The translations under genes were made by a program, and so were the position numbers. Below the pieces are notes generated by a model that saw nothing but the letters and a program-made list of their open reading frames with translations, made no database searches and had not been told where the DNA came from. From a bacterium (GTDB taxonomy: Bacteria; Armatimonadota; Zipacnadia; Zipacnadales; UBA11051), in assembly GCA_021372615.1 (NCBI GenBank), contig JAJFUB010000031.1, forward strand, positions 1 to 33,402: a stretch of 33,402 nt of DNA, written 5' to 3'. This document shows, piece by piece, positions 5,278 through 26,524 of the stretch (positions are counted from its first letter, which is position 1; each line of letters begins with the position of its first letter).

Positions 5278-5379
5278 CCGTTCGCAGGACGGTTGGCGCG
5301 CGTAGCGCGTCCCTTAGGCGGAGACTGAAGTCCCCGCCTGGGGGGCGGTCCTGCGGACCGCCGATCGTCCTGCGGACGA
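5278..5379 (+). repeat. Three-hairpin repeat, copy 1, with a degenerate flanking unit
   Basis: Hairpin 1 is AGGCGGAGACT-GA-AGTCCCCGCCT (5316-5339, one mismatch). Hairpin 2 is GGCGGTCC-TGC-GGACCGCC (5344-5362). Hairpin 3 is TCGTCC-TGC-GGACGA (5365-5379). A TGGGG linker joins the first two. A degenerate unit resembling hairpin 3 lies at 5278-5292. The same three-hairpin order recurs at 26093-26154 (inverted) and 26308-26369. The rest of the 5196-5473 gap shows nothing else convincing. Confidence 0.75.
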
Positions 5380-26012: not shown

Positions 26013-26095
26013 GAGGCGCAGATGCCTGGGGCGCAGAGGTCTGAGGCGTAGAGGTCTGGCGGGGCGGGAGTCGTGGCGAGGCGGGAGTCGTGGCG
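26013..26095. repeat. Two short tandem repeat arrays
   Basis: Three imperfect 15-16-bp units, close to GGCGCAGAGGTCTG, fill 26013-26059. Two exact copies of GGCGGGAGTCGTGGCG (26063-26078 and 26080-26095) follow with a 17-bp period. They abut the inverted copy of the three-hairpin repeat. Confidence 0.6.
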
Positions 26096-26154
26096 TCCGC
26101 AGGACGCTCGGCGGTGCGCAGCACCGCCCCTCAGCCCGGCGTTTCAACGCCGGG
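26093..26154 (-). repeat. Three-hairpin repeat, copy 2 (inverted)
   Basis: Read on the minus strand: CCCGGCGTT-GA-AACGCCGGG, linker CTGAGG, GGCGGTGC-TGC-GCACCGCC, then GCGTCC-TGC-GGACGC. It has the same hairpin order as copies 1 and 3, and all stems are perfect. Confidence 0.75.
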
Positions 26155-26187
26155 AAAGGACGCCGCCCCCTTGTCTAGAAGTGCCTG

Positions 26188-26266
26188 CCGTCCGCAGGAC
26201 GGTTGGCCGCAGGCCCGTCTCAGGCGCAGACCTCCCCGGGCGTTCCGCCGACCGTCCTGCGGACGG
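26188..26266. repeat. Two solitary CCGTCC-TGC-GGACGG hairpin units
   Basis: CCGTCC-GCA-GGACGG at 26188-26202 and CCGTCC-TGC-GGACGG at 26252-26266 match the third hairpin of the three-hairpin repeat. They lie between its inverted and direct copies. Confidence 0.65.
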
Positions 26267-26307
26267 AACGGAACGACCGCAAGGAGGAACAAGGGGGCGG
26301 CAGCATC

Positions 26308-26369
26308 CCGGACGCTGAAGCGTCCGGCTGGGGGGCGGTGCTGCGCACCGCCAACCGTCCTGCGGACGG
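26308..26369 (+). repeat. Three-hairpin repeat, copy 3
   Basis: CCGGACGCT-GA-AGCGTCCGG (26308-26327), linker CTGGGG, GGCGGTGC-TGC-GCACCGCC (26334-26352), then CCGTCC-TGC-GGACGG (26355-26369). All three stems are perfect. Confidence 0.75.
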
Positions 26370-26396
26370 GAGGACCGCCAGCCTGAGCACCGCCGA

Positions 26397-26411
26397 CCGT
26401 CCTGCGGACGG
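26397..26411. repeat. Solitary third-hairpin unit
   Basis: CCGTCC-TGC-GGACGG, identical to the third hairpin of copy 3, placed 28 bp beyond it. Confidence 0.6.
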
Positions 26412-26524
26412 GACGGCCGCCAGCCAGCCCTGGTTGGTAGAGGTGGAGTTGGGAGAACGGTAGAATACCCTAACGGGACGATCTCGATGGTCGGGGCCCA
26501 TACGGCCAGCGAGGGAGGGACATC

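Follow-up and report, generated by a model that had tools for sequence, protein, structure and literature searches.

Three-hairpin extragenic repeats of an Armatimonadota genome as probable REP-like elements of a single-strand DNA transposase system

The window, which here means the whole analysed stretch of 33,402 nucleotides, contains three dispersed copies of a repeat that is predicted to fold into three adjacent hairpins. This raises the questions of whether the folded form is conserved, in which strand and nucleic acid it is formed, and by which means such units could have spread.

Build and genomic distribution of the repeat

The three copies described in an earlier note on this DNA were confirmed at positions 5316-5379 (+), 26093-26154 (−) and 26308-26369 (+), together with the order of their hairpins. 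On the upper strand, each unit consists of hairpin H1 (stem and TGAA loop), a CTGGGG- or CTGAGG-type linker, hairpin H2 (stem and TGC loop), the dinucleotide GA or AA and hairpin H3 (CGTCC-TGC-GGACG with one additional outer pair). Fold prediction for single-stranded DNA yielded exactly three adjacent hairpins for each copy, with z-scores of −3.8 to −6.2 that beat 200 of 200 shuffles. A covariance model search, as proposed in the earlier note, was run on the genome and its relatives and gave units in both. This model, R1, was derived solely from 18 copies in the window genome.

Copy 1 (5316-5379) was matched by R1 at 5318-5379 with 82.8 bits, and its DNA fold reached a z-score of −3.8 on the upper and −5.5 on the lower strand. 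It shares one common H1 with a degenerate inverted unit at 5278-5337 (−; R1 E-value 9.4e-8), which comprises H3 and an H2 with a GTA loop. The other two copies, copy 2 (26093-26154; R1 93.4 bits, E-value 2.2e-19) and copy 3 (26308-26369; 91.9 bits), belong to an inverted, REPIN/BIME-like cluster at 26085-26420. Between them lie a partial unit of H3 and a short H2 at 26188-26248 (−; R1 E-value 0.007), with an exact H3 at 26189-26201, and an isolated H3 hairpin at 26253-26265 (+) with the exact sequence CGTCCTGCGGACG; an extra H3 hairpin follows at 26398-26410 (+; exact match). Two complementary inner arms, GCCGCCCCCTTGT at 26162-26174 and ACAAGGGGGCGGC at 26289-26301, are part of a predicted large fold. 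The whole cluster has a predicted folding energy of −137.9 kcal/mol (z-score −12.4), contains the inverted repeat I2 (68 nt, 82% complementary) and could alternatively fold as one long hairpin.

The three repeats are members of a family of small extragenic DNA hairpin clusters that is spread over the whole genome. The earlier note had named a limitation to these three copies as an outcome that would speak against it; instead, the 6.41-Mb genome contains many more. The exact H3 sequence occurs 54 times, compared to once for a reversed control, and R1 gave 54 matches with E-values of at most 0.01, among them 32 with E-values below 1e-7. Of these 32 strong units, 29 are located outside genes as determined with a simple codon-position gene caller, while coding sequence makes up 83% of the fetched sequence. 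Copies of H3 form clusters in the arrangement − − + + on contigs C21, C31, C75, C84 and C151, and these inverted, clustered copies constitute REPIN-like units. As is common with repeats, several contigs of the genome stop close to copies. No match for the unit was found in Rfam.

Two further observations concern the window genome. Insertion-sequence-like ends with the sequence GGTTRYGTTCAGAAAG were detected at four sites (L010, C65:61867; L011, C66:7707; L016, C88:184; L022, C156:2919). All four abut the TGAA loop of H1, with contig ends nearby, as if an element inserts into the H1 loop with target duplication of TGAA. Moreover, a second family with two hairpins (GGGGGTTGAAACCCCC and CGTCCCTCCGGGACG) is present on contig C18 at 19.5-39.8 kb (L081/L082), with about eight copies within about 20 kb, all on one strand. 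Their regular orientation prompted us to consider an integron attC array, which was dropped in favour of two-hairpin units like those around the TnpA gene of the relative G001.

Conservation of pairing and polarity of the fold

That the folded form is conserved, as the earlier note had claimed, is supported by covariation within the genome and by pairing across relatives. The 18 genomic copies, 15 of which are distinct, had 97.3% of their pair cells paired compared to 84.3% in shuffles, and changes on both sides of the stem occurred at 10 of 22 pairs. The covariation score of the 18 copies was 0.376, while shuffles scored 0.136 and slid partners did not exceed 0.079; with slid partners, 32-47% of the cells of the 15 distinct copies pair. 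Since this first set had been chosen with a Watson-Crick bias, the count was redone on 116 distinct R1 matches from 14 genomes, in which 1980 of 2113 cells were Watson-Crick pairs, 69 were upper-strand A.C and 29 upper-strand G.T. The details of the stem changes differ in part from the initial description. The first stem does not differ entirely between copies, as H1 of the two copies at 26 kb differs at three of eight pairs. The C-G to G-C swap in H2 exists, but is located one pair away from the loop-closing pair and not next to the loop, and five of the six H3 pairs are invariant in the window genome. The copies may also reflect a mosaic exchange of whole hairpins instead of base-by-base change; as the varied H1 types on the same H2 and H3 could have arisen in this way, single compensatory events are unproven.

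The mismatches show a strand bias. An A.C mismatch on the upper strand corresponds to G.T on the lower strand, and 51 of the 69 are found at one position of H1, the third from the TGAA loop; H1 in many relatives bears one conserved lower-strand G.T mismatch. The excess of A.C over G.T arose although the model, as we understand it, pairs G.T and not A.C. This polarity points to the lower strand as the folding strand, which also had the better fold z-score in five of five pairs tested. Read on this strand, the order of the unit is H3 with a GNA triloop, H2 whose triloop is of the GNA type, a foot that mostly ends in YAG, and H1 with a TTCA loop. The loops of H2 and H3 in the window genome are GCA, GAA, GGA and GTA, which bears out the remark in the earlier note on the stable GNA triloop of DNA hairpins. 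Over the 116 matches, the H2 and H3 loops are largely GNA-like, and YAG stands directly 5' of H1 in 86 of them, with GTAG in seven; in the window genome, the foot is chiefly CCAG, TCAG or ACAG and not GTAG. TnpA_REP and IS200 enzymes are strand-specific and recognise loops, stem irregularities and a 5' tetranucleotide on single-stranded hairpins (PMC8266576).

Association with Y1 transposase genes in related genomes

The window genome contains seven Y1_Tnp genes, none of which is flanked by the window repeat family. Five encode proteins of the Y---NP type (four classified by script, L030 by sequence) and two of the Y---Q--HH type. The latter two (L024 on C56 and L025 on C40) have units of their own with the same general build, in which a linker containing GTAG or CTAGG stands between a triloop hairpin and a tetraloop hairpin.

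In relatives, R1 matches are located directly beside Y1 genes, mostly as inverted copies on both sides. Examples were found in the genomes G049, G016, G057 and G001 and, in a wider set, in G079, G081, G111, G080, G104, G255 and G102. G081 has the same AA linker and an identical H3 (GCGTCC-TGC-GGACGC) as the window family. The encoded partner proteins are IS200/IS605-like: they score above the NCBIfam cut-off for IS200/IS605 family transposases and have IS200/IS605-type TnpA chains as matches in the PDB. Their signature consists of DHVH, WQ and Y---Q--HH, and the 16 partner proteins compared all retain the two HUH histidines, the Y and the Q; a few members show signature variants such as NHLH in L024 and Y---Q--QH in L098. 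Judged by these motifs, the partner proteins are assigned to TnpA_Y1 subclass 1.2, which Quentin et al. (2018) described as lacking REP, being low in copy number and showing no insertion sequence behaviour (PMC6006769). Two other proteins of G049 are 65% and 45% identical to L098 and thus represent diverged copies within one genome. A pilin-like ILFPVFARAREKAR motif was also found in the genome of a relative.

A profile of the 16 partner proteins, searched over 291 genomes of the phylum, detected a subclass-1.2 gene in 85. The flanks of 68 loci with sufficient flanking sequence were compared with 300 control placements. An inverted repeat between the left and right flank exceeded the 99% control point at 56 of the 68 loci, and the test was failed by the other 12. 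A flank score of at least 50 was reached by 47 of the 68 loci and by two of the 300 controls. The repeated flank segments are often H1-linker-H2-H3 or two-hairpin units. Across genomes, the gene is present in 29 of 34 that bear units compared to 56 of 257 others (Fisher p=5e-13, uncorrected for kinship), and in all 15 genomes with at least six units.

Outside of the phylum, a plasmid of Persicobacter (Bacteroidota) carries a subclass-1.2-type gene with inverted flanks, in which a linker that ends in TAG joins a triloop hairpin to a longer one. On a Bernardetia plasmid, one gene is bordered by an inverted repeat of its flanks with short hairpins, and a second Bernardetia gene has hairpin repeats on one side only. 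These plasmid loci with subclass-1.2-like tnpA near hairpin repeats (L225, L226 and L228) are few and represent a lead. No relative of subclass 1.2 was found in a phage collection. Within the collection of papers searched, none links Armatimonadota with repetitive extragenic palindromes, and Quentin et al. alone name subclass 1.2 together with TnpAREP.

Traces of mobility were sought in congeners. G016 contains three tandem copies of a 143-bp segment just past a stop codon, each with a unit and the last one incomplete, and no such segment is present in the intergenic DNA of G020 at this site, where the two genomes are 92% identical on one side and 87% on the other. At another intergenic site, units flank a TnpA gene in G139, and in G152 an inverted pair of such units is present without TnpA. 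Both differences agree with gain and loss of units. These comparisons concern presence or absence alone, in diverged intergenic DNA, and neither a base-precise empty site nor a new insertion was seen in the congeners searched (G016/G020 and the genus of G139). That the units have moved is therefore an inference. As a separate observation, G016 carries a tandem unit array with a period of 81 bp on its contig C14 (L084) and dozens of copies on C23 (L083).

Proposed mechanism and comparison with known systems

Based on the observed family, its pairing, extragenic placement, inverted clusters and mismatch strand bias, and on the subclass-1.2 TnpA genes flanked by units in relatives, we consider it quite probable that the repeats are REP/REPIN-type non-autonomous elements of a Y1 (HUH, single-strand) transposase system with a composite unit. 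They would probably be passengers that are moved or copied by a single-strand DNA transposase of the subclass-1.2 type. The lower strand would become single-stranded, for example on the lagging-strand template, and TnpA might bind the folded H1 together with the foot. It could then cut beside the unit and rejoin it elsewhere, and the units would therefore spread in trans. H2 and H3 may aid folding of the strand or mark the ends. The copies in the window genome would then be left over from, or depend on, an enzyme of this kind that the assembly no longer contains. The earlier note contained the conserved folded form, which stands; the connection to REPs and to a transposase is absent from it.

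The hairpins could instead be elements of RNA, that is, terminators, mRNA stabilisers or a small-RNA family, with a secondary link to TnpA. Intergenic units could be transcribed, their pairing is kept, and REPs elsewhere have been proposed to act in mRNA (PMC3733652). We regard this as unlikely, as one site between genes of the same direction (window 26.1-26.4 kb) holds units in both orientations, few cells (29 of 2113) are of the G.U type, Rfam holds no match and transposase genes are flanked by inverted unit pairs. Of the two forms that the earlier note had allowed, RNA or single-stranded DNA, the data favour the latter, with both orientations and inverted pairs at a single intergenic location, few wobble pairs, and a partner gene whose product is a single-strand DNA transposase. 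That the units are MITE-like derivatives of ordinary IS200/IS605 elements (subclass 1.1), and that the hairpins are subterminal ends, would agree with the NCBIfam and PDB matches of the partner proteins, but seems quite improbable given their Y---Q--HH and WQ motifs, the divergence of copies within one genome (65% and 45% identity to L098) where near-identical insertion sequence copies would be expected, and inverted units on both sides in place of distinct left and right ends. A spread by recombination, tandem duplication or gene conversion, with incidental proximity to TnpA, could draw on the unit-bearing 81-bp and 143-bp tandem duplications of G016 and on the lack of a detected cognate TnpA in the window genome. 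The systematic inverted flanking of TnpA genes and the co-occurrence across many families make such an origin very unlikely.

Extending the transposase reading, we lean slightly towards the view that subclass-1.2 Y1 enzymes form a second widespread REPtron lineage in this phylum and Bacteroidota, independent of the class 2 GTAG REPs, in which each gene would co-evolve with its own composite unit, where a linker that often ends in YAG lies between a triloop and a tetraloop hairpin. With the system described here, a transposase subclass described without repeats or insertion sequence behaviour gains a partner and hence a likely job. The repeats also show that a REP-like element requires neither GTAG nor a build of one hairpin, and motif scans may have missed them for this reason. 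Through the natural paired variants, with dozens of pairs of enzyme and repeat within a single phylum, the recognition of folded DNA by single-strand transposases and the co-evolution of repeats and enzymes become directly testable.

Compared to known systems, the partner shares DH[IV]H, WQ, Y---Q--HH, a length of about 148 amino acids, low copy number and diverged copies with TnpA_Y1 subclass 1.2 (PMC6006769). As published, this subclass is without REP, generally lacks terminal structures and occurs mostly in Cyanobacteria and Bacteroidetes, whereas here composite hairpin units flank it and it is frequent in a different phylum (85 of 291 genomes). IS200/IS605 elements have the Y1 HUH transposase and hairpin ends in common with the present system, but subclass 1.1 consists of near-identical multicopy elements with subterminal hairpins, unlike the diverged copies and inverted multi-hairpin units found here. 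CGTC-tagged REPs (Di Nocera et al. 2013, PMC3733652) are likewise short multicopy palindromes, often in pairs of opposite orientation. They have an unpaired CGTC tag, one 8-9-bp stem, a loop of 4-5 nt and no transposase; identity with them was rejected, as CGTC is here paired within the H3 stem and the loop has 3 nt.

The closest resemblance is to REP/REPIN/BIME elements and REPtrons with class 2 TnpA_REP (RAYT). Like these, the window family consists of many short, mainly extragenic palindromes in inverted pairs and clusters, and strand-specific recognition of single strands is likely here as well. As in REPtrons, repeats flank a low-copy Y1 HUH transposase gene in relatives; for the window family, such flanking was not found in the window genome. 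Class 2 REPs have one hairpin per unit compared to two or three here, the classical foot is GT[AG]G compared to NYAG and rarely GTAG, and RAYTs carry Y---NP where the present partner has Y---Q--HH. On this comparison, the window system appears to work like a REPtron/REPIN system and, because its foot and transposase class depart from GTAG and Y---NP, is best regarded as a variant of the classical families rather than a member of them.
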